Positions 5,575 through 29,260 of a DNA stretch of 35,101 bases are shown here, in pieces. A program made the translations under genes and the position numbers. Every line of letters starts with the position of its first letter. Within the stretch, counting starts at the first letter, position 1. This stretch comes from a virus, in IMG/VR virus record IMGVR_UViG_3300010883_000172, positions 1-35,101 of that record, one strand, 5' to 3'. The notes under the pieces were generated by a model. It searched no databases and had not been told where the DNA came from. It was given only the letters and a program-made list of their open reading frames with translations.

Positions 5575-5581
5575 TTGTTTA

Positions 5582-7848: not shown

Positions 7849-10800
7849 CAGGTGCATTTGTCGGCTCGTCAGCTATGAATCTAGCTTGTTGAGTCGTAGA
7901 AGCCTGTAATCCTTTACCATCTGCTGGATTACCATCTGCCCCTGTATACCAAACCTGTCCTTTCTTGTGTAAGATTTTAATCTGTGTTCCGTCAGCCGGT
8001 ACAGTGCTTAAAGTCACTGTTGTGCTAGATCCATCCACAGAGTAGTTAATAGTTGATCCGTCCTCGCTAGTAAGCAACAATCGTTGGCCACCAATGAATA
8101 TGTCTAACTCACTAGCAGAGGCTGGGGTTTGTGATAGTGCAAATACTGTTGTACTGCCGTTACCTGTGAAGGTGTTGGTATGTACTGTATCTGCATAAGG
8201 TATGGTTTGAGTAGCTGACGCATCTACCACTTCGGCGCCTGATCCATGTACCTTAATTCCTGTTCCAAGAGTTCCACGTTTAATTTGTCCTAATACGTTA
8301 GTTGTCTTGGTAAAATATTCTATTCTCTCTTTGTCTATAAAGATTACACCTGGTTGATTACTTGCTATATCCGGCGTAGGCATTATACTTCCGTCTTTGA
8401 CTGTAATAGTTCTAGAACCTTCTATTAGATCTTGTGTTAATTCTGTTGTTGCATTTTTGTTGATACGTTTGTAGAAAGTTCTATTCAACATATCTTTGAA
8501 AATTCTAAATCCTGTGGCTCCTGTTGCTGATTCTAAAGCAAAGTACATAATATCTAATCTGTCTGACGATACTATTGTTTTGCCAACAACTGTTATTGTG
8601 TTGCCACTTAATGTGTAATCACTATTCTGTATTAACTGCTCTCCGTTTAACCAAACATACGTGTATGTAGAATTTAGTGGATCAAATCTCAATTTAAATA
8701 TGCCGTTTGCTCTACCTTCTAAAACTTCTCTTCTATGTTTCATACCAAGTGCATTGTTAAATGTTGTTACTGAAAGTTTATCACCATTGCTAATTGAGTA
8801 CGGTGATGTAATAGCACCTGGGATTAAAATAATATCTGTACCTTGATTGTAATAGTGGTTGTCAACCAGCGTTGAAATACAAATTACATCTGTCGATGTT
8901 GGACTTATAACAAAAATAACATTTTGACCTCCAATGTCCACTGTGTAGTCTGTATTGAGTAATTTTTGTACACCATTCACAAACACTTGAACTTGATTTG
9001 CATTTGTAATATTTTTTGCAGGATCAACTGTTGAGTCATCACCTAATCCTGATACCACTCCGTAAGTGTATGTGCTTCCGTCACCAACGTAATATGTGTT
9101 GTCCGGGCCTCTTAACACTCTGCCGTTTACTTCTATTGTTGTTAATCCTGAGAATGGACCAATCGATCCAGCCGGGTAAGTTAATGTATATCTGTTAGTT
9201 CCACTAGCATATGTCACTTCTTGATTTCGTACACTAGCAAAACTTCTTGTGCTTGTTGTAGATTTATTAAATCCTGCAACTTGTATAAATGCGTCGGCCG
9301 CCGGAGCAGAATTGAATGTTACTGTGACTGCGTTTGCAGTTGTTGTAGTTGTGAATGCTGTTGTCGGTACACCATCAATAGTAATGTAAACATCAGATAC
9401 TGTTGAGTCTAAATTAAACTCACCTCTTGTTGACGTTTTAAACTGTGTTGTTGACCCATCGCCTGTGTATTGATCCAATACTCTATAATTCTCTCCGCTG
9501 ATTGCAAATACTTTTGTCGATACAGTACTATTAGATGCCGGAGCTGATCCAAATGTAATTGTTTTGTTTGCTACATTTACTGTATAATCTGTTGTTAATT
9601 TTTTAACCGATCCATTAACACTTACAGTTACTGATCCAATTGTTCCTGGATAGTCTCCAATTGAGAATGTTGTTAGTGTTCCGTTACCGATATAATTATT
9701 TTCGCTTATGAACGGTACACCAGACTCCGGAGATGTGTAAACTTTAATGTCCACGGTGTCAAACATTTGTCCGGGAACTGTTTCTTCCGGAGCATAACTT
9801 GTAGATGGACTTATAAAATCATCACCTTCTAATAAAATGTCACTTGGTGCATGACCTAATGCCGATGTAAACAATCCGCCTTTAACAATTGAATCTAATG
9901 TTCTATCATCAGTCGGCGTTAGTACTCCATCATCATCAAATGGTATAAATTCTACCAATGCATTTGAATCTGCTGTTTCACTAATATTAAAAGTAACTGT
10001 TGACCCGTCACCTCTGATTACATCTGTAAGTTTTCTTCTTGTGCTATCTCCATGTGTTATGTACACTTGATATAAATCTGTTGTTGTAGGTGCAGTAGCA
10101 AAAGTATAAGCAGTTGTTGATCCGTCTGCTGTAAATGCCTTAACTCTCGATTGTCCATAGTTGTCCCATGGAAAATCATACCACCCTGCTTTATCCCACC
10201 CTGATTCTTGTGAGAATAATAATCCTGTAACCATTGTTCCACCATAATCAACACCTGTCATTACTTGTGACAGTTCGTTGCCTGGCATTCCTGAGCCTGG
10301 TGTGTAAAAACCTTTTGTTCTGTCAGCGGCTGTTAGTCCTGTTTCGTTACCGTACACTTTATATACATTGCCTTTGTTATCATCAAATTTTGTAGTTGCT
10401 GTAAAGGCACTTGTTGCTTTGTACAATTGATTGCTATATCTAATCAAATCTCCATATGCAAAGTATGTAGATGCTTTCCATTCTTTAACTTTCGATGTGC
10501 TTGATACTCTATCAAATTTAATTGTTGTGTTGAAATCTCTAACAAGATCATTGTTTAAATTTGCATATGCTTTAGCTGTGTCAGTCGGTGTTCCGCCAAG
10601 AGTCAATCCGCCTGTTAACATAACTGTTGGTGTTGTTGTATAATTTGCACCTGTGTCTGTTAGTGTAATTTTTGTAACCGCACCATCTTGAATTATTGCT
10701 GTTCCTTTTGCTGTTGTTGTACTAGGAGCAACATACATTTTAAATGTTCCAGATTTTGTAGTTTGTGCATGATTTGTTGATCCGGTTGGCATGTAAAATG

Positions 10801-13800
10801 TGCCTACTATACCATCAAAGGTGTGTGTATGTGTTGTTCCACTTCCGCTGTTTTGTGTATCATAAACTTTTGCTTGTTGTTCACTGGTAAACAATGGATA
10901 GTAATATCCATAACTGCCTGATGTTCCACCACTTGAACTTGTTGCTTGTATTTGGAATGGTCCTGTACTGCCTACTGTTCCACCTAATACCGTAACATCA
11001 GGAGCAACTTCATACCCCGATCCAGCTTTTGTTATTGTTATTGAAGCAACATATTTTTTATGGTAGTCGTTCCACATTTGATATGGAAGCTCGGTCAGTT
11101 TAGCAGTGTCTGTATTAACATTTAGTGGTCTAATTTTTTTAGTTGTTGTGTCATATAACGGAGGATTATCAAAGTCTGTAAATATTCCGTCCTGTGTTTC
11201 TATGCCTGTATACCCTAATTTGTACTCTCTTAATTTTGTATGGAATGGTTTTACTTCGTTTATATAACTTTCAATCCACGCATCTGTGCCTGTTTCATAA
11301 CTCTTTCTTTGATCTAATTTTCTAACAGAGTTTTTAACATTTATAAATGATGTTTTGAATAACCAATCTACATATGTTTGCTCTGCTAGTACTTTTCTTA
11401 ATCCTGTAAAGAATAAAGTATTATATTCTCCTGCAAGGTCTCCAATAAACAAATCATCTCTCAATGCTGTAAGTATCATTCTTGTTTCGTTTGCTGGTTC
11501 TTGGTCAAAGAAGTTTTCATCAAATGTATCATCGCCGGCAAAACCTGTAGCGTCTTGTGTGTAATCGTAAAGTTTTGTTGACAACCTAACTGTACCATTC
11601 TCTGTTCCTACGTTCTCCCAACCTGTTGTTGTTTTCATAAACAGTTTCCATCCGCCTGTATCTGCACTAGTAACTTTAACATGTTTTCCTATAGAAAGAT
11701 CTAGTCCGTCTAATTCATATTCATATGTAACTTGTTTGTCGATTTTTGTATTCGAATCATGTAGCATTCCGTGTACTGCTAGATCAGTACCATACCAATC
11801 TGTATAATTCCAATATGTAGCAGTGTTATATGTTTGTAATTTTGTTCTAGAAAATTCTGTGCCATCCCAAGTGTATATTGCCCAAAAGTTATTCGATGTT
11901 TCGTCTGCTTTAACCAAATATTTTACTATTCCGGATAAGTCTTTTGTATTAATGTATTTTAAGTCTGCATAAGTGTCAACTGTTGTGTCCCATTCTAAAC
12001 TCTGTGCTGTCGGCTCTGGTTCTTTAGCATCTAGGTTTGTTAGATTAATTTGTCCAACTAGTTGATATTTTTTAAGAACGCTGTTTGCATAATCAATAAT
12101 TTCTTTCAGTGCATCAAATCTATTCACATACCAACTCTGTCTCGGACGTATGCTGTTTCCATATCTTTGGTTTATTGGTAGATCTATATCTGGAACTTTG
12201 TCACCTGCTGTGTTTTGTCCTATTAGTGAATCCCACCAACGTTTTTCTATCTGTGTCCCTGGTCTGTAATCTTTGTCTCCTTCTCTTGCTAGTTTCCATA
12301 CCGAGTGCGAATCTCCTTCAAACGTATTAGATCTAATATCAACACTTAAAATTATATCACCATTTACTAGATTAGATATATTATTAAGAATAAATTTGTT
12401 TGTGTCTGTGATTGAATAATATTTGAAGTCGTATTGTTTTGGATTTCTAATTAGATTTGCTGTGAACAATATACTGTTGTTTCTTTTAACTACACTATTT
12501 GCCGGTATACTAGAGACGTCTTTCGCCCAAAAGTAATAGTAATCAACAAAAGTATCTAGTGTTGAATTATATTTTTGTTTTATTGTATAATTGTTTTCAT
12601 CTAGTGCGTTAGCTGTGCTACCTGTACTGATTGACTCAGCGTTATACTGTTCAGGTGATAATACAGACTCAGTCCATTCGTAAATGTCTATGCTAGATCC
12701 TGGGAAAGTGTTACCCCAGTTGTTAATTTTGTACTCTTGACTGCCTTGTTCATACCAAAGCCATTTCACTGCAGATAAATCCCACCAAACTTCCCCTAGG
12801 TGTGTTTCTGCCCAAGGTGTTTTAGTATTTGCATTTTCTCCAGTATTATATTGTGCTGGATCCCATGTTGTTTTAATATTAATTTCTCTGTCTGCTATTC
12901 CGAGAATTCTTCCTTTTATAGGATCATACAAGTCGTAATGATCTCTAATTTCTTTAGATTTATTATCAAATTCAAATACCTGTCCTACTTTTTCAAGATC
13001 AATTAATGCAGTTTCAGTAACAGTGTTGTTCCATGAATATTTGCCGTTTTCTTTTAAATCAAAAACGGTAACTGTTCCGTCGTTTGCAACTTTTGTGCTT
13101 CCATCGGCTGTTGTGTTCCCATCATCTTTTGGAGCTCCAATAACCACGACATTATCCACTACACATGTACCTCTGCCATAATCATCCATAGCACTAACAT
13201 TATCAGTCATTAATCTATCATCAATTATAAATTTTGTATTATACATTGTGGCTGTATATGCTCCGCCCGACTGTATATTATTATCAACAAGTCCTGTATC
13301 CTGTAAATCAAATGTTGTTTCTCCTAAATCTATTTTCATATTTCTAGGACTTGCAAAACTTTCAGCACCTATCACTAACCTGTTTCCTGCTGGATTAATT
13401 GCAAGTGTAGTTCCAAACTTCATATTAGTTTGTGAGTCTGGTGCATTAACTGTTTGTTGTAATGTATAAGTGTTTGTGGATCCGTCTGCATTCCATTTGT
13501 AGTAATATATTGCTCCGGCATCTGCTTGATCTGATTTATCAACTCCTGGAGCACCTATCATTAATGTTGTTCCGTCTTTGCTCATTGCTATTGAATCACC
13601 AAATGCTGTGTTTGCCGTAGAACCATCTGATGTAACACCTGTTAAAGTTTGTGTAAGCGTAAATGTGTTTGCTGAACTTCCGTCCGACCCTGCTCTTACA
13701 AATATTTCTACTTTGCCTGCATTACCTGGTGCTAATGAACTAACTGCTAGTATGTCACCGTTATCGTTGGCCTGTAATCTGTGTCCAAATCGTTGTCCGC

Positions 13801-16800
13801 TACCGCCAGCTGGTGCTTCTAATGTGTAATCTCTTGACCATCTATCGTATGTCGACCCGTCTGCTCCTACTCCCCAAGTGTACATATAGACTCTGCCCTT
13901 GTCGTTGTCATGTCCAGGTGCTGATGCAAAAAGATATTTTTGTGCTGTGCTTCTAACTGAATCTACTCCCGACTCTGTAATTTTGTGTGCCCATCCAAAA
14001 TTCTGCGATGCCGCATCTGTTGGTGGTCGTAGTGTTGTTAATGTTCCATACTTAAATGTACTTGGATTCCAAAGAAATATTTTAAGTAATCCTGCGTCTG
14101 TGAATCTTGTGCTGAGATCTGACCCTAAGGAATTTGTGTACGGACCGCCTGCTACAACAAAGTTTTCATCTGTACTCATTGATAATGATTCACCCAACCT
14201 GCCTGTAAAGTCATTTCCAGCAGATGTTGTAATTACTGATTGCGTTGCAAATGTTGATCCTGCTGTTGCTTCTCTTCTAAACAGGAAGTTTATATTTCCT
14301 TGTCCTAGGCCTGGTGCTGACACAATCAATGTTCTTCCGTCATTCCTAGCAACAATCTGTTGTCCAAAGTTTTGGTCTGTTGTTGTAGTATCTGGTGATA
14401 GTTGCAACGTTGTTGCGTACGGATCTTGTTTTTCGTACACACGCCATAACCCTGAGCTGTCAGCATCTGTGAATACTGTGTCACCGGTTCTGCCTATATT
14501 TTCCAGTTTGTCTTGATAATCAGCATAGCTTAATAGGTCATTCACATTATCCATGGATGATAATCTTACTGAAATAAATTTGTAAATGTTTCCATAAGAA
14601 TCAGCTGTCGAACCATCTGCTAATACTTCTGAGAATGGTGTGTTTAGAGAAAAGTCTATAACAATATTCTTGTGATCTACTACAGATAATACTTGATACA
14701 CACCATCTAAATTTTCAGTTTTAGCATTTGTTATGCCGAAATAATCCGATTGACTAGTTGTCGTTCCTGCCGATAATCCATGAGAATCTGTAAATGTTAT
14801 TTGTAATTGTGAATCATCATTAACTCTTTTAAGTTTCTGTATTTTGTACGATTGATTTGTTAATCTAAATACGTCCCAATCACTGTTTGATTTATTCGCT
14901 ACCCATATCAATTCATTTTGCGTAACTCTAGTCATGTCAAGTTTCAACAAATCAGATATATTAAATGCTGTATGGTGTACCTGTCCTAGTTGTGGATATC
15001 CTGCTGTTTTATAAACCTGTGCATGGTCTCTGCTACTGCCTTCTTTAGAATAATCTAATCTACTAAAAGTTGTTGCGGCATTATAATCTACTGGTTTGTA
15101 GTACATATCACCTTTGACTATTGCATCTGATCTTGCGTACTCAACTGTTTCGTTTGATGTGTCAAACAACTCAAAACTATTTGGATTTGCTGTTATTACA
15201 TCATCATGTAAACGAATCTGTATGTTTTCAATTGAATCTGTATTTCCAAACTGTCCTGTTCTTAACATCCACTCTGGATATAAATCAAGTGCAATATCTT
15301 GATCTTCATATTTGGCTTTCAATAATCTATCTATTGCATTTTGTGTTCCTTTTTCTCTGATGTACCCTTGATAAAATTTGTACTGTGATACATCGTTAAC
15401 AAATAAGTTTTCTAAATAATCTCGAGATTGATACCCGATTAATTTTTGTGCTAGTTTCTGTTGCGATTCATCAAAGTTAGTTGTTTCTAAATTATAAAAA
15501 TCATTAAACTGTGATATCTTATAATCAAAGTTTGGAATTAATTGTGGTGCTGGTTTTTCATCTTTTAATATCCATTGTGAAACATCAAATGACGACGTTG
15601 CTCCATGATTAAATCTTGCCACATAAAATTTACCTTGATATTCTATGCTGTCGCCTATTCTATAATCTGTATTAGCAGTCCAATACGTTACCTGTGCAGA
15701 ATCAAATATAAACCCAGGTGCATAGTAATCTCCATTCCAGCCTGCTGTTTTCCAACCTACCACTTTTAATCGGTTCTGTCTAAATCCTGTTGTAGGTTCA
15801 TGAATTATGTCTGCGAACACTGTTTTGTTATCAAACAAAATAATATGTTCTTTTTGCACAGTGGTTAGTGCTATATGATACAATCCAGTATTTTCATCTT
15901 TTATTTCTAAATCAAAAGTTTTACCTATTCTTTTTGTAGAAACTTGTCTTATAGGTATTTTTCTTCCGCCTGCATCTAACAATGAATAATCTCCGGCTAA
16001 ATTTTGTAACTTGCCCACTATCGAATTGTTTGTGTCTAACTCAAACCCGTGTGCCGCAGGTGAAACTGTTACTGCTGAGCCAGGTGCCCACTCTTGTGTC
16101 GTCCAAAATAAAAATTCTCTTACTGCATTTGACCAGTTTAATGTTTCTTTAATCTCATTTGAATATTTGTTAAATCTAAAACCTTGTGCTTCTAAGTAGT
16201 TTCCGTATCCTAGTAAGAAGTCTGCAACTTCTTGAACTGTGTTAAACACATAACCATATGGTATAGTTTGTACTGCTTCTTTAAAGATATTATATCCTAT
16301 TACTTCCACTGATCCTGCTACTGATAGTTTATTTCCTACTGCTGTTTTAACAGGATATTTAAAGTTGAAATATGGATCAGTTGTCGAATAACCTAAAACT
16401 TTAAAGCCTCCTAGTATTGTTGATCCGTCATGTGAAACATCTGTATTCTTTTCTATAAGAACACCTGAATAACTAAAACTTTTAACAGCGTTCGATGTTC
16501 TAAACATTATTTTGTAGTTTTCGTCTGGAATAAATTTAGATCCCGATGTAGAACCTGGTGATGTCGAATCTGTTAATATTTTTAAATTGTCTTTGTCTGT
16601 AAACCCGCCTAGCTTGTATGCTAATTGTGTTTTAAGATTCGACATTTTTTTGTAGTACAAAGGATCCGGATCAAGATTTTTTGATGTTATATAGCCAACA
16701 ACCAACGGCTGATATCCTGCTGTAAGATGTGTCGTCTTTACTCCAGTTGCAGTATTTGTCGATGTTTGTAAATGATACTTTGTAGTTTTAAGTGTTTTTC

Positions 16801-19800
16801 TAATTTCAGTGTCTTTATCTATTTGGTTTCCGCCAATATTTGTTGTTTGTCTAGACGGGTCAAACATATTAGAAAAGAATCTAGCTGGCTGTGTTAGTGC
16901 TAACGTTTTAATTACAGTAAACGGATATGCTGATGATCTTCTCCAAGATGTTTCTGATGGTGCTTGGTCTCCAAACTTCCATCCGGATCTTCTTCCTGGA
17001 ATATTTAGAGCATCTACTAGTCCAGCTGTAATAGGATCTAATAAATTTCCTGATGCATCAACTGGCAAATAATTTTTAATACCTGGCTTGCTGTATCTAC
17101 CTGTTTGTGTTTCAATAGCTGTCCATAATACATCATTGCCGGATGTGTAAGGTGCTGTTCCGTATGTTGCGTCCCAAGTACTTGGTTTTTCTGAATGTCC
17201 TAGCATCTCCCATGGTCTTACATGCGGCGCATCAGTGTCGTAAAAATATTTGTATATGCCTCTCCAATACCCCGGTAACTTTTCGTTTTTAACTCTGTCA
17301 GTACTGTTTGCATAGTTGTATGTGAATGGCGATCCTTCTGAGAACGTAGTGTTGTTAATGTATTGTACATTGTTACGGCCTGCCCATGTGTGGAAGTCTC
17401 TAGACATAACACCATCTACTTCAGCTAGACTATAATCTGTTGCTGTAAACACACTTGGTGTTACATCGCATATGTGTGATAATGATCTGTCATATACTGT
17501 TTTAATATTGTTGTAAATTCTTCTCTCTAATTCTATTATTAAATCATCTCTTTCATCACCGTACGCTTTAATAAAAGAACCATCATGTTTTCTAATCATA
17601 GAAGTTGTTGTTATATAAGTGTCATCTAATATTACTTCTGGTTTGAATTTTGGATACATTCCAAGTTTAGTCGGACTTGGTGGCATATAACTGCCTTTGG
17701 TATCTGCGTAATCTTTTATAACAATAGTATCACCTTCTGCAAGTGGTCTTGTTACTGTTATACTGTCGTCTACTGTGCTAAAAGTATAATCAGAGCCTAC
17801 TAATAAAAGTTCACCATTTAAATAAATGTACACTGCTCTATTGCTTAACGCAGTTATATCATGTTGTGAATCGATTGCATATTCTGTTTGCGTTGCTCCT
17901 GCAACTATGTGTGTTCTACTCGAAACATTTTCTCCCCAGCCTATCATATCCTCATAATAGAATGGGAAAGATGCAGTTCTTCCTGGTGTAATTGCTTTTA
18001 TAATTTCGTCAACTCTATCTCTTGCAACGCCTTCGTATGTTGTTTTCACTGCATGAGTTAAAAATGCACTGTACCATTTTTCGTATTCTAAATTCACATA
18101 ATCTAGTGCTAACGAAAGATTCGACTCACTGTCCATTAATCCAAAAATTGCTGGTAGTAATGATCCTTCGTGTTGTAGTATTGTTCCACCTTTTAATCTC
18201 GCATCGGGCTTGTCTCTTAAATTTGATGTTCCTGGTATTTGTCCTGTTACATCCTGATTTTTATCAAACATGTCATAAACATGATTTAATATTTGACCAT
18301 ATGTGAATGTACCTAGTGCTTCATTCTCACAGTTTGTCGACAAATTTTCCGGTACTTCATATATGCCTTTGTTTACAATTTTATTAGCAGAGCTGTAACC
18401 TGCTATTCTTATCTGATCGCCTACTTTTAAGTTTTTAATAAATTTAACATATTTGTTTGTTGTTCCGTTAACTAGTGTGTAGTCTGTTGTTATTGTTTTT
18501 CTTACTCCATTAACTTTTACTGATAATTCTAAATCTGTTAGTGCCGCAGAATTCTTGTAAAAATCAACTGCAAATAATTGTGATTCTGTCGAGTCAGCTA
18601 TGTGTGTTCTGATAACTCTCTGTTTACTGTTGTTAGTTCTTTTGACCCAAGGTCCTCTATAATTTTGAAGAGTAGTTAATGACGTGTAATGTAAGTGTCC
18701 CGATGCTAATCTTTTAGAAACTGCTTTTTCGCCTAATTTGTAAGTGAACGAATCTGATGTATGATCCGATTCAAACATTATGTTACCTACATTATTAATA
18801 GTGCTATATTTGACCTTCATTCCAAGTACAGTGTCAGTAACAGCAGTATCGCTAGTTGCAAAAGAAAAAATCTTTGCTCCTACAAATGACGAACTTGGAT
18901 ATTTTATAGCATCATCAAACGATGTCAGTGAATCGTCGAATATGTTGAACAACGGTTCTTGATTAAGTTTTGTTTTTTGTTGCGAGTCTACCCAAAGTTT
19001 TGTTGTCGAATCATAGTAAAGAGTTTTTCCTTGATGTGCTGTTCCGTATTCTATAAAAATTGATTCATTATCTGCCGGTGACCCGTCTGTTGCTTTTGTT
19101 AGTGCTATAAGCTGTGTCGAATCTCCTGCGTTAACAAAGTTTACATTATAAATCATTCCGCTTACTAACGGATCTGTGTCGTTAGCAAAAACAATTCTCA
19201 TTCCGTCTGCTAGTGCTAATCCGTCAACAATATAACCTGTTTGTTTAACCACTGTTGAGAAAGCATCTGTTGTAACTGTGTCATACAACGTTACAGATCT
19301 TTTAGCAACTGTTCCGTGATTGTACAGTTCTAGGCCTGAGTCAAATTCTATAATAGGTCTTTTTGCTCTATCGTCTTCATTTAAAACAGGAGTGAATCCA
19401 CTGATTCTTGCTGTTTCTTCAATTACAGATCTGTGAAACCATCTGTTATATCTTGACCAAGCATTTTGATCACGTGAATCTCTTTTAATTGTGATATAGT
19501 CTTTATCTTTTGCTGTGTAAACTGCTTTAGCATATGGTCTTGTATCGTAACCGACTGCGTCATAAGGAACAGTAGCTTCCTCAGAATATGGTCCAGGAGT
19601 AATTAAATCATCCACATCAGTAAGTGTGATCGATTCTCCAACACCTTCTACATAATATTGTTTGTTTATATATTCTTCAGATATTGCACTATCATCAAAC
19701 GTTATCTTCATTCCATTTGATAAATCTAAAGTTCTTAAACTGTAATTTTTTACACCAACAATATCATCAGCTGGATTTATTTTTACTGTTGTTGTAATGT

Positions 19801-20662
19801 CTTTAATTTGTAATATCCCATACATTGAATCATGGTTCCCACATTGATAGTACAACGTAGCAGGGCCTGTTGCTGGTACAGTAAACGTCACTGTGCCATT
19901 ATCTGTTCCGTTGTTAGAAACGCCTGTAGAATAAACTGTCGACGTTGATCCGTCCTCACTGATTTTACTCTTATAAGGTTCTGTCATTATCCACAACGGA
20001 TGACCTTTTGCATTTACATTAAATTTGTATGTGTTGCCTCTGTAAAGTGTCAATATTGGATTGTTCTCATTTTCTCTGTGTGTAAAATTGTAGGCACCTT
20101 TTGCTTTATTCTCTACAGAATATTCTGCAACTGCATTTGGTCCAACGGAATCAAACGATATAGCACTAGGGCCAATTGGCATCCAATAGTACTCTCGGTA
20201 ATTAATTAACTTATCGTAATCAATCGACGGATTCCATGAGTATACTGCTTCTTTTGAAAGTCTATCATGATTGTCAGTGTTACCACCTAAAAATTTAATT
20301 TGATTTATATAATCATCATATGTTCCTGTAAACTTAACTTGGTCTTCAGGATTTAGTGATGTTGTATCTCTGTCTGTGTAAGTTACAGCAGGCTCTAATT
20401 GATAAGCCATTCTATCTCGAGATGTTGCTGGAAGATATCTGTCTGTAGGTTTTCTTGTAGTAGCGTCTTGTTTACCTACAAAACCATCTAGTCTTTCCAA
20501 TGATCCTTTTTGTACTAGTGGATCTAATGTGCTTGATAAAAATCTTTGGTTAGCATCTGTTCTATAAAAAGCTGGTAAGTGTTGAACCGTACGTCTGTAC
20601 TCGTTATTGCCTTGTTTGACAACTTCCTGGTTTGCTTGTGAATTTATTGAATTATCTGCCAT
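7844..20662 (-). CDS. Giant 4272-residue composite virion (baseplate/fibre) protein
   Basis: A single uninterrupted frame of 12.8 kb follows gp6 directly, with its ATG overlapping the gp6 stop (TAATG). In T4 this position holds the wedge genes 7, 8 and 10, so a wedge-periphery or side-fibre role is inferred. The N-terminus (QHLPAFYRTDANQRFLSSTL; REYYWMPIGP near residue 156) looks like large structural proteins of T4-like marine phages. Visible modules in order are: a cupredoxin-like domain (201-288), a first DYT module (~730), a second (~960), a CBM5/12-like module (1659-1698) and a seven-bladed FG-GAP-like propeller (~2087-2536). These are followed by a His-rich THTHTF module (3249-3318) between two GSGY-type strands, a second CBM5/12-like module (~3393-3438), and a C-terminal array of DYT modules (~3500-4235). 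The DGST motif occurs twelve times. I see no signal peptide or membrane segment. No single name fits; it is probably a multidomain appendage exposed on the baseplate. Confidence 0.85.
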   Translation of the reverse strand: MADNSINSQANQEVVKQGNNEYRRTVQHLPAFYRTDANQRFLSSTLDPLVQKGSLERLDGFVGKQDATTRKPTDRYLPATSRDRMAYQLEPAVTYTDRDTTSLNPEDQVKFTGTYDDYINQIKFLGGNTDNHDRLSKEAVYSWNPSIDYDKLINYREYYWMPIGPSAISFDSVGPNAVAEYSVENKAKGAYNFTHRENENNPILTLYRGNTYKFNVNAKGHPLWIMTEPYKSKISEDGSTSTVYSTGVSNNGTDNGTVTFTVPATGPATLYYQCGNHDSMYGILQIKDITTTVKINPADDIVGVKNYSLRTLDLSNGMKITFDDSAISEEYINKQYYVEGVGESITLTDVDDLITPGPYSEEATVPYDAVGYDTRPYAKAVYTAKDKDYITIKRDSRDQNAWSRYNRWFHRSVIEETARISGFTPVLNEDDRAKRPIIEFDSGLELYNHGTVAKRSVTLYDTVTTDAFSTVVKQTGYIVDGLALADGMRIVFANDTDPLVSGMIYNVNFVNAGDSTQLIALTKATDGSPADNESIFIEYGTAHQGKTLYYDSTTKLWVDSQQKTKLNQEPLFNIFDDSLTSFDDAIKYPSSSFVGAKIFSFATSDTAVTDTVLGMKVKYSTINNVGNIMFESDHTSDSFTYKLGEKAVSKRLASGHLHYTSLTTLQNYRGPWVKRTNNSKQRVIRTHIADSTESQLFAVDFYKNSAALTDLELSVKVNGVRKTITTDYTLVNGTTNKYVKFIKNLKVGDQIRIAGYSSANKIVNKGIYEVPENLSTNCENEALGTFTYGQILNHVYDMFDKNQDVTGQIPGTSNLRDKPDARLKGGTILQHEGSLLPAIFGLMDSESNLSLALDYVNLEYEKWYSAFLTHAVKTTYEGVARDRVDEIIKAITPGRTASFPFYYEDMIGWGENVSSRTHIVAGATQTEYAIDSQHDITALSNRAVYIYLNGELLLVGSDYTFSTVDDSITVTRPLAEGDTIVIKDYADTKGSYMPPSPTKLGMYPKFKPEVILDDTYITTTSMIRKHDGSFIKAYGDERDDLIIELERRIYNNIKTVYDRSLSHICDVTPSVFTATDYSLAEVDGVMSRDFHTWAGRNNVQYINNTTFSEGSPFTYNYANSTDRVKNEKLPGYWRGIYKYFYDTDAPHVRPWEMLGHSEKPSTWDATYGTAPYTSGNDVLWTAIETQTGRYSKPGIKNYLPVDASGNLLDPITAGLVDALNIPGRRSGWKFGDQAPSETSWRRSSAYPFTVIKTLALTQPARFFSNMFDPSRQTTNIGGNQIDKDTEIRKTLKTTKYHLQTSTNTATGVKTTHLTAGYQPLVVGYITSKNLDPDPLYYKKMSNLKTQLAYKLGGFTDKDNLKILTDSTSPGSTSGSKFIPDENYKIMFRTSNAVKSFSYSGVLIEKNTDVSHDGSTILGGFKVLGYSTTDPYFNFKYPVKTAVGNKLSVAGSVEVIGYNIFKEAVQTIPYGYVFNTVQEVADFLLGYGNYLEAQGFRFNKYSNEIKETLNWSNAVREFLFWTTQEWAPGSAVTVSPAAHGFELDTNNSIVGKLQNLAGDYSLLDAGGRKIPIRQVSTKRIGKTFDLEIKDENTGLYHIALTTVQKEHIILFDNKTVFADIIHEPTTGFRQNRLKVVGWKTAGWNGDYYAPGFIFDSAQVTYWTANTDYRIGDSIEYQGKFYVARFNHGATSSFDVSQWILKDEKPAPQLIPNFDYKISQFNDFYNLETTNFDESQQKLAQKLIGYQSRDYLENLFVNDVSQYKFYQGYIREKGTQNAIDRLLKAKYEDQDIALDLYPEWMLRTGQFGNTDSIENIQIRLHDDVITANPNSFELFDTSNETVEYARSDAIVKGDMYYKPVDYNAATTFSRLDYSKEGSSRDHAQVYKTAGYPQLGQVHHTAFNISDLLKLDMTRVTQNELIWVANKSNSDWDVFRLTNQSYKIQKLKRVNDDSQLQITFTDSHGLSAGTTTSQSDYFGITNAKTENLDGVYQVLSVVDHKNIVIDFSLNTPFSEVLADGSTADSYGNIYKFISVRLSSMDNVNDLLSYADYQDKLENIGRTGDTVFTDADSSGLWRVYEKQDPYATTLQLSPDTTTTDQNFGQQIVARNDGRTLIVSAPGLGQGNINFLFRREATAGSTFATQSVITTSAGNDFTGRLGESLSMSTDENFVVAGGPYTNSLGSDLSTRFTDAGLLKIFLWNPSTFKYGTLTTLRPPTDAASQNFGWAHKITESGVDSVRSTAQKYLFASAPGHDNDKGRVYMYTWGVGADGSTYDRWSRDYTLEAPAGGSGQRFGHRLQANDNGDILAVSSLAPGNAGKVEIFVRAGSDGSSANTFTLTQTLTGVTSDGSTANTAFGDSIAMSKDGTTLMIGAPGVDKSDQADAGAIYYYKWNADGSTNTYTLQQTVNAPDSQTNMKFGTTLAINPAGNRLVIGAESFASPRNMKIDLGETTFDLQDTGLVDNNIQSGGAYTATMYNTKFIIDDRLMTDNVSAMDDYGRGTCVVDNVVVIGAPKDDGNTTADGSTKVANDGTVTVFDLKENGKYSWNNTVTETALIDLEKVGQVFEFDNKSKEIRDHYDLYDPIKGRILGIADREINIKTTWDPAQYNTGENANTKTPWAETHLGEVWWDLSAVKWLWYEQGSQEYKINNWGNTFPGSSIDIYEWTESVLSPEQYNAESISTGSTANALDENNYTIKQKYNSTLDTFVDYYYFWAKDVSSIPANSVVKRNNSILFTANLIRNPKQYDFKYYSITDTNKFILNNISNLVNGDIILSVDIRSNTFEGDSHSVWKLAREGDKDYRPGTQIEKRWWDSLIGQNTAGDKVPDIDLPINQRYGNSIRPRQSWYVNRFDALKEIIDYANSVLKKYQLVGQINLTNLDAKEPEPTAQSLEWDTTVDTYADLKYINTKDLSGIVKYLVKADETSNNFWAIYTWDGTEFSRTKLQTYNTATYWNYTDWYGTDLAVHGMLHDSNTKIDKQVTYEYELDGLDLSIGKHVKVTSADTGGWKLFMKTTTGWENVGTENGTVRLSTKLYDYTQDATGFAGDDTFDENFFDQEPANETRMILTALRDDLFIGDLAGEYNTLFFTGLRKVLAEQTYVDWLFKTSFINVKNSVRKLDQRKSYETGTDAWIESYINEVKPFHTKLREYKLGYTGIETQDGIFTDFDNPPLYDTTTKKIRPLNVNTDTAKLTELPYQMWNDYHKKYVASITITKAGSGYEVAPDVTVLGGTVGSTGPFQIQATSSSGGTSGSYGYYYPLFTSEQQAKVYDTQNSGSGTTHTHTFDGIVGTFYMPTGSTNHAQTTKSGTFKMYVAPSTTTAKGTAIIQDGAVTKITLTDTGANYTTTPTVMLTGGLTLGGTPTDTAKAYANLNNDLVRDFNTTIKFDRVSSTSKVKEWKASTYFAYGDLIRYSNQLYKATSAFTATTKFDDNKGNVYKVYGNETGLTAADRTKGFYTPGSGMPGNELSQVMTGVDYGGTMVTGLLFSQESGWDKAGWYDFPWDNYGQSRVKAFTADGSTTAYTFATAPTTTDLYQVYITHGDSTRRKLTDVIRGDGSTVTFNISETADSNALVEFIPFDDDGVLTPTDDRTLDSIVKGGLFTSALGHAPSDILLEGDDFISPSTSYAPEETVPGQMFDTVDIKVYTSPESGVPFISENNYIGNGTLTTFSIGDYPGTIGSVTVSVNGSVKKLTTDYTVNVANKTITFGSAPASNSTVSTKVFAISGENYRVLDQYTGDGSTTQFKTSTRGEFNLDSTVSDVYITIDGVPTTAFTTTTTANAVTVTFNSAPAADAFIQVAGFNKSTTSTRSFASVRNQEVTYASGTNRYTLTYPAGSIGPFSGLTTIEVNGRVLRGPDNTYYVGDGSTYTYGVVSGLGDDSTVDPAKNITNANQVQVFVNGVQKLLNTDYTVDIGGQNVIFVISPTSTDVICISTLVDNHYYNQGTDIILIPGAITSPYSISNGDKLSVTTFNNALGMKHRREVLEGRANGIFKLRFDPLNSTYTYVWLNGEQLIQNSDYTLSGNTITVVGKTIVSSDRLDIMYFALESATGATGFRIFKDMLNRTFYKRINKNATTELTQDLIEGSRTITVKDGSIMPTPDIASNQPGVIFIDKERIEYFTKTTNVLGQIKRGTLGTGIKVHGSGAEVVDASATQTIPYADTVHTNTFTGNGSTTVFALSQTPASASELDIFIGGQRLLLTSEDGSTINYSVDGSSTTVTLSTVPADGTQIKILHKKGQVWYTGADGNPADGKGLQASTTQQARFIADEPTNAPE
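7960..10155 (-). repeat. C-terminal array of DYT beta-modules in the giant protein
   Basis: This end of the giant gene encodes consecutive modules of ~70-90 residues. Each typically starts with GDGSTTxF, has a V(F/Y)(V/I)NG strand and a DYT turn, and ends with a hydrophobic strand after a small Asp/Ser-rich loop. Examples are VSVNGSVKKLTTDYTVNV (near 9590), VFVNGVQKLLNTDYTVD (DYT at 8942-8950) and VWLNGEQLIQNSDYTLSG (near 8615). More degenerate copies lie at about 9260-9490, 9930-10155 and 7960-8180. Two isolated copies lie far upstream in the protein, near 18480 and 17790. Such modules are common in phage fibre shafts. Confidence 0.65.
10349..10490 (-). other. CBM5/12-like carbohydrate-binding module 2 of the giant protein
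   Basis: Residues ~3393-3438 read KEWKASTYFAYGDLIRYSN, then QLYKATSAFTATTKFDDNKG. The W...Y-x2-GD-x-I-x-Y...LYKA...F-D pattern is the same as in the module at residue 1659, with Trp3395 in the first conserved position. The closing Trp is not obvious, so this copy is weaker. Confidence 0.4.
10709..10918 (-). other. His-rich YYYPLF...THTHTF...FYMP module in the giant protein
   Basis: Residues 3249-3318 carry YYYPLFTSEQQAKVYD, then THTHTFDG (3277-3284), then TFYMPTGSTNHA. The unit is inserted between two similar strands, ITITKAGSGYEVAPDVTVLG before and ITLTDTGANYTTTPTVMLTG after. Two His two residues apart plus a third His downstream could bind a metal; that is inference. Confidence 0.45.
13055..14405 (-). 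other. Seven-bladed FG-GAP/integrin-type beta-propeller in the giant protein
   Basis: Residues ~2087-2536 contain seven successive units built as xFGxx(I/L)...DG..L(V/I)(V/I)(S/G)APG...G.(V/I)..(F/Y). Clear markers are NFGQQIVARNDGRTLIVSAP, GRLGESLSMSTDENFVVAGG, NFGWAHKITESG with FASAPG, RFGHRLQANDNGDILAVSS, AFGDSIAMSKDGTTLMIGAP, KFGTTLAINPAGNRLVIGAE, and DYGRGTCVVDNVVVIGAP. The unit length (~60 residues) and number fit a closed seven-bladed propeller of the integrin-alpha FG-GAP type. Confidence 0.7.
15570..15690 (-). other. CBM5/12-like carbohydrate-binding module 1 of the giant protein
   Basis: Residues 1659-1698 run VTYWTANTDYRIGDSIEYQG, then KFYVARFNHGATSSFDVSQWI. The spacing W...Y-x2-GD-x-I/V-x-Y-x-G-x-x-Y-x-A...S-F-D...W is the pattern of chitin/cellulose-binding family 5/12 modules, with Trp1661 and Trp1697 at the two ends. 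Ligand unknown. Confidence 0.5.
19799..20062 (-). other. Cupredoxin-like domain of the giant protein
   Basis: Residues 201-288 read as a small beta-sandwich: LTLYRGNTYKFNV, then GHPLWIMTE, then GTVTFTVPATGPATLYYQC and GNHDSMYGILQIKD. His221, Cys274, His277 and Met280 sit in the order His...Cys-x2-His-x2-Met, close to the type-1 copper site of plastocyanins and azurins (His...Cys-xn-His-xn-Met). The flanking YYxC and MxG are also typical. The fold call is by motif only. Copper binding is inferred from the residues and not shown. Confidence 0.7.
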
Positions 20663-23600
20663 TAGTATCCAGCCCCACTACTGCCGGAAGTTGATCCCGA
20701 TCCTGTTGTAGTAGAGCCTGACACTGTTGATCCTGATGTGGTGTTTGTAGTAGATGTCGATGTGTTTGTTACTACTGTACCGGAAGCCGATAGTTGATTG
20801 GCTCCTAGTGCTGTAATAATTGTAACATCATTAACGGTGGCCCCACTAATAAAAATTTCATCTGCCGCGGAATCTATCTGGAACAAAGACCCAAACCCTT
20901 GTCCTGACTGATTTGGCACAATAACTGCTGTAAGCAAGTCTGGTGCTAGTGCATTGTGTACAAAAGCGGCTAGTTCTGTAAAATAAAAAGTATCTCCAAA
21001 ATCCCAATTATCTAGTGCAAAGAATTGGTTAATTGCGGCAATTACTCGTGTTTTAATAACTGCATCTGTTACGTTTGTTTTTGGATTTTTTACAACCTTA
21101 AATGTTGCTTGTAATTGTTCATCTGCATTTGTACCAAATAATATTTTATATTTTACTGGATGATATATTATTTGATCTGCTAACGATTTCATAGGGTTAA
21201 GTATGCCGGAATAATTTATTCTCATTTGATTAGATGTTGAAGGTACCGGAAGAGCTCCGCCATCTTGTAACCATATTCTATAAAGATTATCATATGTTCT
21301 TTCTAGCATGTACACATCTACAATGTTAGACACACTCGGGTCAATTCTAGTTTCTTGTCCTGCATTGTGTTTGTACTGGAAACTTATCGAACTTCTCCCT
21401 CTTCTTGCTATGTAATCTGTTGTTGTTGCTAATGTGTTTGTTGTCGAATTATATTTTTTAATAATATCTTCAGATGCATCATAAAAGTAAAATAACTGTC
21501 CGTTGGTATAAGTTCCTGAATTTAAAGTAATATCAGTTTCCTTTGCTGTTACAACAAAATTTGTTGATGCATAAGGTCTAAATCTAGATATATTATTGTA
21601 TGATATATATTTTTCTTGGAATATAAATTTTGTACTAATGCTTAGATCAGGTTCAACAATGATATCAAATATTTCCGGATTGTCTACTATACCATCATCA
21701 TCATTATCATAAAAGCCAACCTTAACCTTTCTATTATCTTGGAAACCGTCTGCTTCTGTAACTGTGTCTACTACTTGCCATGTAATTGGATAACCAACGG
21801 AATTACTTGTAGAAACAAGTGAGTTTGTTTTCAACAGTTTTACTGTGTCTTTAACACTAGTTCCTAATTTGTAATCATAAATTTTTTCCTGTGTATCAAA
21901 ATGAAATTTGTTCTGCGATTCTGATTCAAAAATATATTCTAATTTTCTGTATGTAACTGTATATGTGTTACCGTCGTTTGTAAATTTGAACCACCAACTA
22001 GCATCTGCATTTGTACCTGCTATTGATCCTTCGTTTGTTAAGCTAAACACATCACTTGCACTTAAATTTGTTGATGTAATAACTTTCCAAGTTTCTGTGT
22101 CCCAATCATATCTCAATCCAAATTCTTCGTATGCTTCAATTCTATCAATAACATCTGTTTCTAATGCTGTTGCAAATGATGTTGTAAAGTTTGGAATCAC
22201 ATCACTAACCACAGAACCATCCGGTAGTATATTATTCAGTGTTATTGGGCCTGCTCCCGACTCTAAATTTCCTACTCCGCCGTTTGCACCATCGCCCGAT
22301 ACTGCACCAATTTTTGCCCATACTCTATCTTCTGCGTTATCAGTTGTTGATGTTACTAATGTACTGTTTAAAAACTTTCTAGTGTCGGGAGATGTAAACT
22401 TAACTAATGCCCCTGGTTTAATGTATTTTAAATTTGAAGTTGCAAAATCGCCTACTACTAATGGACCAGCGGCTTTAATATAACCTGTATTAGTGTTTGT
22501 TGATGTAGTAGTTGAATTCCAAGTTGCACCCATACTTAAATCTTTTGTGCCGTATTTCAAATAGTAAAATTGTCTTGCGTACGGAGTTTTTAATTTTGCT
22601 TCTACTTTAGTATCTAGTGTAGATTGTATATCGCTTTTGGTATTAAATGTAAATGTAAATCGTTGTGTCGATTCTTCTCTGTACAATATTCCATCCTCAG
22701 CAAACACACTCACGTTTGAGTAAGCACCTGTTGGATCTAATATTTCTTTTGCTCTCGAAATACCTGAAGCAGATCTGTTTACTGATTTAACTTTAACAAT
22801 TTCTTGTGATGCTGAAAGAGGTACTACTTGATAATCTTCAGCAGTAATCATTCTGTTCTGTGCATAATAAACTTGTCCTGCTTTTTGTTTTATCGAAGCA
22901 TTTGATTCTGTTGCCGCCGCATTGTAAACACTAGCTTGTAGGCTCATTGTTATTGACAATGTTTGTTGTCCACTGTTAGCGTCTATGTAAGGTATCGAAA
23001 CTTGTATATTCTGCATGTCAGCAGGTTGAATAGCGTACTTGTCGTTATCACTTATTCTGTAATATGCTTTAAAAGAACCTAATGGGAGATTAGAAAAGTT
23101 TCCATCGCCGAACACTAAATCAACTGTGTCGTTTGCTTTTGTAACAACATTATAAATGTCTCTTTCTGATTTAGATAACGAATTGTAAATTGCATTATTT
23201 CCAGACAGTGCCGGAACCTGTGTCCATTTTTTTGTTATTTGTCCAAATTGATCTAATTGATATAACCAAACATCACTGTTGTTAATGTTTGGGGTATCTA
23301 GTGTCTCTATGTAATTTGTAATCGCCGAATTAACTGTAAAAGTTGATTGCTGTATATTTCCTTGTTTGAAAAGGAAGAAAAATCCTGTGTTGTTTGAACT
23401 GTCACCGGCACCATCATTTCTGTAGGTATATGTTAATCCTGTGCCTTCTATAGGATTTGATTCATAAATTGATTCTGAATCTTCAAGTGTCGATGGTACT
23501 ATTTCAAAAGCTCTGCTTATTCCGCCAACGTTCGAAGAAAAATTAAACATCGGTAAGTCTGATTGGTTCGAACTTAACGTGTAAACTTCTGTGCTAATGC

Positions 23601-24141
23601 CACCTATCTTTGCCGACTCTCTAGGCTGACCAAATAATTGTCCTGTTTGGTTTGCGGCATTTAATATTGCAGTAAATTGTTCTCTGTAATTCGAGTTTGC
23701 AGAGTCATTCCAAACAATTGTGCTGTTAGCAAGGTTACTGCCTGACGAATCTGTTACATCCTGTGTTGTTGAAATTGCATTAATTTTTAGTAGGCCTGTT
23801 GCTGGCTGATTTCTTTTAGCATTGTAATTGATTAGCCTTGCTAATCTTAAAATGGAGTTTCTTCTTTCTGCTGTTTCTAAAAAGTTTTCTCTAGCATTTA
23901 GATCAACTCTGAAAGATAATGCTTGAGCAATATAGGCTATTAGATCTAAGAGTGCTACATACTCAGAACTTTCAACAAAGTCATTGAAGTCATCTGGATA
24001 ATTTTCTTTAAGGTAATTGACCATTGTTCTACGAAGTGTTTCAAAATCGTAGGATTTAAAGTCTGCTTGTTGGAAGGATTGGTAAATCTTTCTCCAATCT
24101 TCTGCAACTAATAATCTATTTTGTCTATCTGTAGTGGCCAT
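20662..24141 (-). CDS. 6: Baseplate wedge protein gp6, enlarged
   Basis: The N-terminal 120 residues carry the gp6 signature: LLVAEDWRKIYQSF, YDFETLRRTMVNYLKENYP, DFNDFVESSEYVALLDLIAY and FRVDLNARENFLETAERRNS. A J-like core lies around residues 380-490 (YYAQNRMITAEDY, VKSVNRSASGISRAKEILDP). In T4, gp6 dimers join the wedges into the ring of the baseplate. At 1159 residues this one is far longer than T4 gp6 (660), with extra beta-rich material in the centre. The end is a Ser/Thr/Gly tail of about 40 residues finishing GSSGAGY. A perfect late element (TATAAATA) lies 26 bases before the ATG. The stop overlaps the start of the giant gene. Confidence 0.95.
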   Translation of the reverse strand: MATTDRQNRLLVAEDWRKIYQSFQQADFKSYDFETLRRTMVNYLKENYPDDFNDFVESSEYVALLDLIAYIAQALSFRVDLNARENFLETAERRNSILRLARLINYNAKRNQPATGLLKINAISTTQDVTDSSGSNLANSTIVWNDSANSNYREQFTAILNAANQTGQLFGQPRESAKIGGISTEVYTLSSNQSDLPMFNFSSNVGGISRAFEIVPSTLEDSESIYESNPIEGTGLTYTYRNDGAGDSSNNTGFFFLFKQGNIQQSTFTVNSAITNYIETLDTPNINNSDVWLYQLDQFGQITKKWTQVPALSGNNAIYNSLSKSERDIYNVVTKANDTVDLVFGDGNFSNLPLGSFKAYYRISDNDKYAIQPADMQNIQVSIPYIDANSGQQTLSITMSLQASVYNAAATESNASIKQKAGQVYYAQNRMITAEDYQVVPLSASQEIVKVKSVNRSASGISRAKEILDPTGAYSNVSVFAEDGILYREESTQRFTFTFNTKSDIQSTLDTKVEAKLKTPYARQFYYLKYGTKDLSMGATWNSTTTSTNTNTGYIKAAGPLVVGDFATSNLKYIKPGALVKFTSPDTRKFLNSTLVTSTTDNAEDRVWAKIGAVSGDGANGGVGNLESGAGPITLNNILPDGSVVSDVIPNFTTSFATALETDVIDRIEAYEEFGLRYDWDTETWKVITSTNLSASDVFSLTNEGSIAGTNADASWWFKFTNDGNTYTVTYRKLEYIFESESQNKFHFDTQEKIYDYKLGTSVKDTVKLLKTNSLVSTSNSVGYPITWQVVDTVTEADGFQDNRKVKVGFYDNDDDGIVDNPEIFDIIVEPDLSISTKFIFQEKYISYNNISRFRPYASTNFVVTAKETDITLNSGTYTNGQLFYFYDASEDIIKKYNSTTNTLATTTDYIARRGRSSISFQYKHNAGQETRIDPSVSNIVDVYMLERTYDNLYRIWLQDGGALPVPSTSNQMRINYSGILNPMKSLADQIIYHPVKYKILFGTNADEQLQATFKVVKNPKTNVTDAVIKTRVIAAINQFFALDNWDFGDTFYFTELAAFVHNALAPDLLTAVIVPNQSGQGFGSLFQIDSAADEIFISGATVNDVTIITALGANQLSASGTVVTNTSTSTTNTTSGSTVSGSTTTGSGSTSGSSGAGY

Positions 24142-24194: not shown

Positions 24195-24608
24195 TTAAGA
24201 TAGGCGTAACAGGGAGTTCTCATCGAAGTTGAATTGTAGCTTCTCTGTGATGTTTAGTGGAACATACGTTATTGACGCCTGTATAGCTATGCCCGAGTCT
24301 GCTTCAGTGACTGTTATATCGTTTGTAGATAACCTAGGGTCAGCATTTAAATTTTCTGTTACATCTTCGAGTATTGCGTCTTTTAGAGCTTCTGTGAAGG
24401 GTTCAAATATAGCATCATATATGATCGTACCAATCTCTGGATTTTCAACACGTTCGCCTTTACGCACTGATAATCTATTAATTAGATCCTGCTTGGCAAC
24501 TTCAAAATCGTATAGTTTAAAATTTTGATATTCTGCTCTTGACGAAAAACCTTTGAAAGTAACTTTCCCAGCGCCTGTGCTATTTGATGAATTTGAATCG
24601 TATGCCAT
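24195..24608 (-). CDS. 25: Baseplate wedge protein gp25
   Basis: This 137-residue protein fits the GPW/gp25 family (T4 gp25 is 132 residues). It has a Ser/Asn-rich start, KLYDFEVAKQDLINRLSVRK, and the conserved RKGERVENPEIGTIIYDAIF (residues 49-68) that resembles the EPR-type motif of the family. A helix (FTEALKDAILEDV) and beta strands in the C-terminal half follow. In T4-like baseplates gp25 sits at the junction of wedge, hub and sheath and helps start sheath assembly. It lies just before gp6, its structural partner. AAGGA upstream of the ATG is a plausible but distant ribosome site. Confidence 0.9.
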   Translation of the reverse strand: MAYDSNSSNSTGAGKVTFKGFSSRAEYQNFKLYDFEVAKQDLINRLSVRKGERVENPEIGTIIYDAIFEPFTEALKDAILEDVTENLNADPRLSTNDITVTEADSGIAIQASITYVPLNITEKLQFNFDENSLLRLS

Positions 24609-24624: not shown

Positions 24625-26448
24625 TTAAAATCTGAAGAAACTTCTCACAGCACTTACAGCCGTATTTGCGTAACCTTTTGCTATTGATGTTAATTGACCT
24701 TTGAACGCTGTTATTTTTCCTTTTACAAATGCCAATGCTTCATTTTTTATTAAACTTTCTACATTTTTTGCCTTAGTTACAAGGCCTTTGATCTGGCTAA
24801 TATTTAAATTTATGTTATCGTTTAATGCTACCATTTTTTTAACCTGAGAGGATACTCCGGAAATAGTTTTGTTTGACATTAATTTGTCTTTAATTTGTCT
24901 CAACTCAACCGGCATCATTTTTGGATTTTCTTTTGCTATCAGAGCCATTGCATCATTAATGAAGTTTTTCTTACGTGCTTCACTGCTGGTTCTAGTGTAT
25001 GGTTCGTGTGTTACAAAATCTGATACTGTGGTTGTAACATCCATAGTATTTGGCTTGCCGCCTTCTTTGATTGGTTTTTCTATGTCAATATCTTTACCGT
25101 CTGTTGTGATTATTCCCACAGAGCCATGTTCTGGCACTAGCCAACTAGGTCCCCATGATTTAAATGCAGGGATTGAATTCATGTGTACTTGCGATCCTGC
25201 CATGTGTACTTGCCCACCTGCACCAACCATTGTCCCACCGCCTGAGTATGATGAAAGAACAGATCCAGCATATGTCCTTACTGCTCCTTGAGATGAATTT
25301 TGTATTGAATTTTTTGCCATTGTGTTGACATTAAATCCTGCGTTAAGATTAACATTTTGTTCTGATGTAAAGTTTAAACTACCTCTTGCATGAAAGTTAA
25401 CATTTGTGTCCGAGTGTACATTAAAATCTCCGCCGGATCTTATGTTGATGCCTGATGCAGAATATATGCTGATTGTTCCGTCTTTGGACATTTCTATAAA
25501 TGCTTTTCCGGAACCGTTTGCAAGATACACAACACCATCTGTGTCATGCATTAATAACTGGTGTCCAGATGCTGTTCTAATCCTCGCAAGTTTATTGCTT
25601 CCGGATACATCTCCATCGTCCATAACAAAACAATGACCGAGATCTCTGTCCACCTGGATAGGCATGTTGTTCACCCCAATGTTTAATTCTCTCGAGTCTT
25701 TGCTTATTCCACCTGGTGTATTCCATCCAAACACTCTGCTAGGTGTTTCTCTTCTTGCACTTGATGACGTTGTGCCTCTAGTGTCGTCTTTGATTAATCC
25801 TTCTGCAAGTAGTTGGTCTGCTAAAACTGTGTTAACTGGAAACTCCCATTTATCCATAGTGAGGTTTGTTTCTCCATCACCATATCTTTTTTTGTTTTTT
25901 TCCTGTATCGGTAAAAAATTTGTACCATAATTTTTTATTTTTGATCCTGCGTTTGCACCTATCTGTCTTTCTCTATTACTAATTTTGTTTGAGTTGTTTA
26001 TTGTGTTTTCCGATGAACCGTTTCCAGGTATCATTTGGTTCGTTAATGGTTCTTGTATACAGCCCATCCAGAACGCACTATTTTGTCCTTTTTCACCTTT
26101 GGCAAATATTACTAATACGTTGGTATCCACATCAGGTGGAATAGCCCACATACCATATGATCGTTGTTGAGGTCCTTCTGATGGATCCTTAGTATTTGCT
26201 TTGAAAGGCTTTGCACCATAAAACGGTGACAGGTACTGACACCAAATAACCTGTGATGGATTAATATCATGCCCGTCTGTTTTAGACAGTTCAGGAATTA
26301 CCACACCTAGCCTTCCCATTTTGAGAGGATCAATTGTGTTCTTGACAACTGCTATGTACGGACCGGCATCATTCGAACTACCTTTTTGATTGAAGTTTTT
26401 TGAATTGTCCTGTGTGTCTGAAAAGCCTCCGCCTATTTTATAACTCAT
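24625..26448 (-). CDS. 5: Baseplate hub / central spike protein gp5 (no lysozyme domain)
   Basis: The 607-residue product starts with a probable OB-fold domain at ~30-135 (YIAVVKNTIDPLKMGRLGVV, WAIPPDVDTNVLVIFAKGEK) as in T4 gp5 and VgrG. Residues ~330-405 form eight-residue repeats (GGDFNVHS, DTNVNFHA, RGSLNFTS, EQNVNLNA, GFNVNTMA), the pattern of the triple-stranded beta-helix needle of T4 gp5C. No lysozyme-like domain is seen between them; residues ~150-260 show no T4-lysozyme motif. The last ~120 residues are Lys-rich and helical, with a hydrophobic end (AVRSFFRF). It probably forms the trimeric membrane-piercing spike. AAGGA precedes the ATG. Confidence 0.85.
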   Translation of the reverse strand: MSYKIGGGFSDTQDNSKNFNQKGSSNDAGPYIAVVKNTIDPLKMGRLGVVIPELSKTDGHDINPSQVIWCQYLSPFYGAKPFKANTKDPSEGPQQRSYGMWAIPPDVDTNVLVIFAKGEKGQNSAFWMGCIQEPLTNQMIPGNGSSENTINNSNKISNRERQIGANAGSKIKNYGTNFLPIQEKNKKRYGDGETNLTMDKWEFPVNTVLADQLLAEGLIKDDTRGTTSSSARRETPSRVFGWNTPGGISKDSRELNIGVNNMPIQVDRDLGHCFVMDDGDVSGSNKLARIRTASGHQLLMHDTDGVVYLANGSGKAFIEMSKDGTISIYSASGINIRSGGDFNVHSDTNVNFHARGSLNFTSEQNVNLNAGFNVNTMAKNSIQNSSQGAVRTYAGSVLSSYSGGGTMVGAGGQVHMAGSQVHMNSIPAFKSWGPSWLVPEHGSVGIITTDGKDIDIEKPIKEGGKPNTMDVTTTVSDFVTHEPYTRTSSEARKKNFINDAMALIAKENPKMMPVELRQIKDKLMSNKTISGVSSQVKKMVALNDNINLNISQIKGLVTKAKNVESLIKNEALAFVKGKITAFKGQLTSIAKGYANTAVSAVRSFFRF

Positions 26449-28960: not shown

Positions 28961-29260
28961 TTATATTCCTAAATCGTTAGAGATGTTGTTTGCCTTGGGT
29001 AATTGTATTGTTACTCCAGGTTTAAAATCATATATTGGATCTTCTATTTCATCTGGATTTCTCTGTGCAAACACCCACCAAAGTCTCGGTGTGCCATAAA
29101 GGTCATAAGCCAATAGATCTGGTCGGTAAGCATATGTTCTTTCTATTGTGTATGTTTGATCATCTGCTTCTGCTGTTATCGTTCTAGGAACCAATGGTTC
29201 TAAATTAATTGAATTTTGCGGTGTATCGTGATATGGTGATGTGTTTGAATAGTCAGCCAT
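28961..29260 (-). CDS. 53: Baseplate wedge protein gp53
   Basis: A 99-residue protein with the gp53 core: YTIERTYAYRPDLLAYDLYG followed by TPRLWWVFAQRNPDEIEDPI and YDFKPGVTIQLPK. This is a LysM-like domain found in gp53 of T4-type phages. T4 gp53 is about twice as long (196 residues), so this version has only the core. In T4, gp53 joins neighbouring wedges to each other and to the hub. Its ATG overlaps the stop of the upstream tube-cap gene (TAATG), and the hub gene starts one base after its own stop. Confidence 0.9.
   Translation of the reverse strand: MADYSNTSPYHDTPQNSINLEPLVPRTITAEADDQTYTIERTYAYRPDLLAYDLYGTPRLWWVFAQRNPDEIEDPIYDFKPGVTIQLPKANNISNDLGI

Follow-up and report, generated by a model that had tools for sequence, protein, structure and literature searches.

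The question raised by this locus is whether a cupredoxin, the small blue-copper fold, is truly built into a phage baseplate protein, and what a metal site could contribute there. The window, that is the whole stretch of DNA analysed, is a virus record of 35,101 bases in which a T4-like baseplate block is encoded on the minus strand. Within it a giant protein occupies the place of gp7 in T4-like gene order, immediately after the gp6-like gene, as listed below.

7844..20662, minus strand: giant structural protein of the virion, 4272 aa (phrog_10938; match of 1098.8 bits spread over four stretches)
19793..20137, minus strand: cupredoxin domain, residues ~176-290 of the giant protein (AlphaFold2, Foldseek and homologues)
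20662..24141, minus strand: gp6-like baseplate wedge subunit (phrog_10646, 4e-291)
24195..24608, minus strand: gp25-like baseplate wedge subunit (phrog_261 and phrog_43)
24625..26448, minus strand: gp5-like baseplate hub / tail lysozyme (phrog_13211, 6e-34)
28961..29260, minus strand: gp53-like baseplate wedge subunit (phrog_7145, 1e-30)

The assignment of the giant protein to phrog_10938 is met both by homology over long stretches and by the adjoining gp6-like wedge gene. The nearest relatives of the gp6-like protein are jumbo phages (Phosso, Atu_ph07, SCTP-2, RaK2 and allies), mostly in records of 345-490 kb, and homologues of the giant protein itself were found in PA5oct, RaK2, Atu_ph07, Phosso and SCTP-2. 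In PA5oct (287 kb) the homologue is annotated as a virion protein by ESI-MS/MS. The original prediction had placed the domain within a phage baseplate protein, and this is supported by the gp53-, gp5-, gp25- and gp6-like neighbours together with the PA5oct annotation. The source is concluded to be an uncultured marine jumbo myovirus, with the domain lying within its giant tail/baseplate protein.

It had further been claimed, from the sequence alone, that residues 201-288 at 19799-20062 have a cupredoxin-like fold with His221, Cys274, His277 and Met280 in the expected order. The positions proved exact to the base on the minus strand (residue 201 at 20060-20062, residue 288 at 19799-19801), and the fold held in prediction. 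By using a 29-sequence alignment of the domain and no templates, AlphaFold2 gave a model of residues 176-290 with a pLDDT of 93.2 and a pTM of 0.86. When this model was compared by Foldseek with 350,542 PDB chains, 156 matches were obtained at E<=1e-3, and the top 50 listed were all cupredoxin-fold copper proteins with a probability of 1.00. The best match was AcoP (E 6.8e-6), and a pseudoazurin with an engineered amicyanin loop scored 2.5e-5; rusticyanin, nitrite reductases, plastocyanin and laccases, including small laccases, were also matched. TM-scores against solved cupredoxins were moderate (0.44-0.59), as expected of a distant member. The family profile, searched against PDB sequences, matched plastocyanin with an E value of 0.0011, and also copper nitrite reductase, azurin and amicyanin. 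The domain of this stretch falls below every Pfam and NCBIfam cut-off; that of Pfam Copper-bind (PF00127) is passed by sister domains from AG-345-E02 and Flavobacteria. Residues ~176-290 are thus predicted to form a genuine cupredoxin domain with a Greek-key beta-sandwich, and the outcome that would have refuted the original prediction, a fold other than this one, was not borne out by structure prediction and fold search.

Among viral models in BFVD, the predicted fold also matched A0A481Z6J5 (Pithovirus LCPAC302) and A0A481YVH3 (Marseillevirus LCMAC201). These giant-virus "beta-sandwich proteins" are small, with E values of 3e-8 to 4e-7 and identities of 20-30%.

The order of ligands in type-1 copper sites, His...Cys-x(2-4)-His-x(2-4)-Met, is met by four residues of the domain, whose conservation in the ligand-bearing clade described below, outside it and in 29 homologue clusters is given with each codon.

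20000..20002, minus strand: His221, first predicted copper ligand, followed by the invariant Pro222 (49/50 in the clade, with one Met; 29/29 clusters)
19841..19843, minus strand: Cys274, predicted thiolate ligand, one of 5 Cys (50/50 in the clade, 0/20 outside)
19832..19834, minus strand: His277, predicted ligand (50/50 in the clade, 0/20 outside)
19823..19825, minus strand: Met280, predicted axial ligand (50/50 in the clade, 0/20 outside)

Only 5 cysteines are present in the whole 4272-residue protein. Across the 29 clusters, defined at <70% identity, 7 of the 87 well-filled columns are invariant (P202, H221, P222, Y272, C274, H277 and M280), and all four ligands are among these seven, for which the chance probability is 1.6e-5. 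This set was found partly with retrieval patterns containing H221, C274 and H277; M280 was in no pattern. In the fetched loci, a profile HMM recovered HCHM at the four places in 134 of 135 unique domains, the remaining one being truncated. The Foldseek matching to copper proteins suggests, by inference only, that the side chains of all four residues come together in three dimensions. In its ligand set, a type-1-like mononuclear site is intact and kept under strong selection; that it binds copper is inferred, with no metal data.

A referee might object that such conservation merely reflects retrieval by patterns that contain the ligands. A bias-free sample was obtained by retrieving relatives through the segment 3' of the domain, ignoring the ligands, which yielded 80 loci, and the domain was present in 80/80. 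In the alignment of unique segments, from which L253 was left out, one clade carries C, H and M in 50/50 segments and H221 in 49/50; the exception, L224, has Met in place of His221 and keeps the other three. Pro222 is present in 50/50 segments of this clade and in 29/29 clusters. In the other 20 unique segments C, H and M are all absent; Cys is replaced by Ser in 15/20, and H221 is kept in 5. Y272 and G282 are kept in ligand-bearing and ligand-less states alike, whereas C, H and M are not. In a tree built from the flanks, with the domain excluded, the ligand-bearing rows form one clade with an SH-aLRT of 100, and the presence or absence of ligands maps onto this tree with the minimum possible number of changes. 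Cys, His and Met vary in a coordinated, all-or-none way, not freely. Free variation of the four residues among homologues would have counted against the original prediction; instead they are kept together, and C, H and M are lost together.

A ligand-less domain was also used as a query against annotated phages and returned 307 records, of which three were read (P-SSM2, RB11-B and S-N03); these and AG-345-E02 all have HCHM. An artefact of ligand-containing patterns is rejected by the flank sampling and by this query. "Loss" is itself an inference, drawn from the retention of the ligands across the wider family; long outgroup branches leave both the rooting and the sequence of gain and loss uncertain. 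The model of a ligand-less domain, built from 11 rows, is of low confidence (pLDDT 64.6), and its Foldseek matches mix cupredoxin and Ig folds. Examples of giant proteins in the ligand-less state are L254, L270 and L277 (within L200-L279). In these environmental phages the fold is a constitutive part of the giant protein and the metal site a lineage-specific trait. The ligand-less lineages imply that the baseplate protein can function without the metal site. From lineages in which the fold persists without ligands it may be inferred that the fold is needed structurally and that the metal would add something extra; the lineages that keep the fold without C, H and M offer a natural control for the metal's role.

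The spacing Cys-x2-His-x2-Met had been described originally as shorter than the usual loop, with the worry that the site had been lost or binds another metal. This part failed, and the worry is unfounded as a loop argument. The loop of amicyanin (1aac), HCTPHPFM, reads C-TP-H-PF-M, with a spacing identical to that of the phage domain, and the spacing is rejected as a sign of a lost site. Amicyanin shares with the phage domain the Greek-key cupredoxin fold and the ligand order, and it aligns with the phage family profile at an hhalign E value of 1e-4 and a probability of 55%. However, amicyanin works as a free carrier of electrons in the periplasm, serving methylamine dehydrogenase, whereas the phage domain is part of a 4272-aa virion protein, and the gap from the first His to Cys is longer in the phage domain. 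At most, the phage domain resembles an amicyanin site in how it works. AcoP from Acidithiobacillus ferrooxidans (7z3b), although the best Foldseek match, has a TM-score of about 0.5 and 16% identity, and unlike the phage domain it is a stand-alone bacterial protein.

It is the His-Pro at the first ligand, not the loop length, that is the unusual feature of the phage site. Plastocyanin and amicyanin have Asn after the first His, and this is not met in the phage domain, which has Pro222. This residue speaks against membership of the classic small cupredoxins in detail, but not against copper binding, because laccases have Pro there. The laccase motif HPFHLHG contains His-Pro (PMC5855693). The first His of this motif is a type-1 ligand. 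Laccases and multicopper oxidases thus share with the phage domain the His-Pro at the first ligand (His-Pro-Phe in their type-1 domain), and a laccase region (399-458) is weakly matched by the phage family profile; unlike them, the phage module has no type-2/3 His, consists of a single domain and has a short, amicyanin-type C-terminal loop. The phage site is accordingly a hybrid of a laccase-like first ligand and an amicyanin-like loop. Pro222 removes a backbone NH near the thiolate, and the site may as a result be atypical; from established knowledge of type-1 sites, a raised potential would be expected.

By computation, the domain is shown to be a modular insertion close to the N-terminus of the giant baseplate protein. 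PA5oct, RaK2 and SCTP-2 have a homologous giant virion protein, which lies beside gp6 in PA5oct and RaK2; alignment with these cultured jumbo relatives showed conserved flanks but no cupredoxin domain at that place, and Phosso and Atu_ph07 carry a different insert at its position. The same family forms the C-terminal domain of the cyanophage gp9 "baseplate wedge tail fiber connector" (phrog_677), and other carriers include tail fibres, proximal fibres, a subtilisin-like protein and T7-like cyanophages. The gp9 and tail-fibre copies belong to the same domain family, with 30-48% identity and four identical ligands, although their carriers differ from the giant protein, and in the records read neither copper nor cupredoxin appears in the annotation. 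With the P-SSM2 copy as query, 353 records were retrieved, nearly all <60% identical; in all, more than 300 cyanophage records have the module in a tail or baseplate protein. Among the cyanophage copies read, the four ligands are kept in all strong full-length matches, and in the S-SKS1 copy the Cys-to-His spacing is longer by two residues. Outside phages, the domain was found with all four ligands in long flavobacterial proteins with signal-like starts (L173-L174, L176-L179), and a search for it in plasmids found none.

As separate observations, the giant gp7 of Prochlorococcus phage P-HM1 (L197) has two divergent copies, one with ligands and one weak and degenerate, and contigs from "Pelagibacter" and "Betaproteobacteria" MAGs (L168-L170) encode the giant phage protein and are probably phage contigs binned with bacteria.

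Several other explanations must be weighed against a copper-bearing cupredoxin. That the resemblance is one of chance can be all but dismissed: a single-sequence PDB search with the domain gave nothing convincing, but profile searches did give matches, and fold prediction, profile searches and conservation together contradict this reading and refute it computationally. A metal-free structural beta-sandwich, in which the residues are conserved for packing only, gains support from homologous domains retained at the same place in the same protein entirely without C, H and M. It is nevertheless very improbable, as the conservation focuses on the predicted ligands in an all-or-none pattern, with Y272 and G282 kept in both states, and packing needs no lone Cys and Met. 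Less remote, though still unlikely, is a purely structural knot holding another metal (Zn, Ni or Fe) or only Cu(I). For it speak Pro222, where Asn would be typical of a small blue-copper protein, and L224, whose Met for His221 with C, H and M kept makes a Cu(I)-friendly set; against it, Cys, two His and Met in such a geometry are a copper set, and the nearest solved folds are copper proteins.

The closest competitor, and a real possibility, is an electron-transfer site, by which copper on the baseplate would exchange electrons with a component of the host envelope, or sense the reducing cell, and switch the baseplate or fibre. The type-1-like ligands are accompanied by the loop found in amicyanin, which carries electrons, and the same module is found in many phages of photosynthetic hosts. 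However, no redox partner or second redox centre was seen in the giant protein, and the varied tail proteins of unrelated phages, along with the secreted-looking flavobacterial proteins, better fit a generic surface module. A role in contact or stabilisation is inferred to be the better supported of the two by a small margin, because no partner centre was seen and the module occurs in many different tail proteins.

The reading preferred here, towards which the balance tips modestly, is that of an intact type-1-like copper module on the baseplate, probably serving as a metal-stabilised contact or in redox sensing. Computation has shown the predicted fold, the conserved ligands and their coordinated loss, the insertion of the domain as a module and its setting in a virion protein; that the metal is copper, that it occupies the site in the particle and that it serves in contact are inferred, and the originally proposed copper binding, appendage stabilisation or host contact remains at that level. 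In this view, the site would lie on an exposed part of the baseplate and copper would most likely be taken up in the envelope, or outside the cell or after lysis. By pinning the loops that carry the ligands, at one end of the domain, the metal may create a rigid and redox-sensitive surface for contact on the baseplate or the fibres; such a surface would act in assembly of the particle or in contact with the host.

The metals known from phage tails are mainly iron or zinc, each in a small number of tail tips. In the open-access literature searched, no account of a cupredoxin or type-1 copper site in phage tail or baseplate proteins was found; subscription papers and superfamily annotations were outside this scope, and an earlier mention of a phage-tail cupredoxin cannot be excluded. 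If the preferred reading is true, a redox metal would be added to the host-contact machinery of abundant ocean phages. A bolder reading, doubted more than believed, is that unrelated ocean phages (T4-like and T7-like cyanophages and marine jumbo phages) carry tail copper through a shared, exchangeable metalloprotein module with the hybrid site, laccase-like His-Pro and amicyanin-like Cx2Hx2M. Were this so, baseplates and fibres would be redox-active or copper-dependent, and infection would be tied to sea-water copper. Cultured cyanophages (P-SSM2, Bellamy and S-RIM8) would allow the idea of a copper site to be tested directly.

Elsewhere in the same giant baseplate protein, residues 1661-1688 and 2345-2386 match Pfam CBM_5_12 and FG-GAP repeats above cut-off, representing carbohydrate-binding and propeller-like parts. 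Three tail-fibre-like neighbours on the minus strand (542-2152, 4159-5604 and 5585-7105) have in common an N-terminal match of ~90 aa to phrog_15511, and these genes look duplicated.
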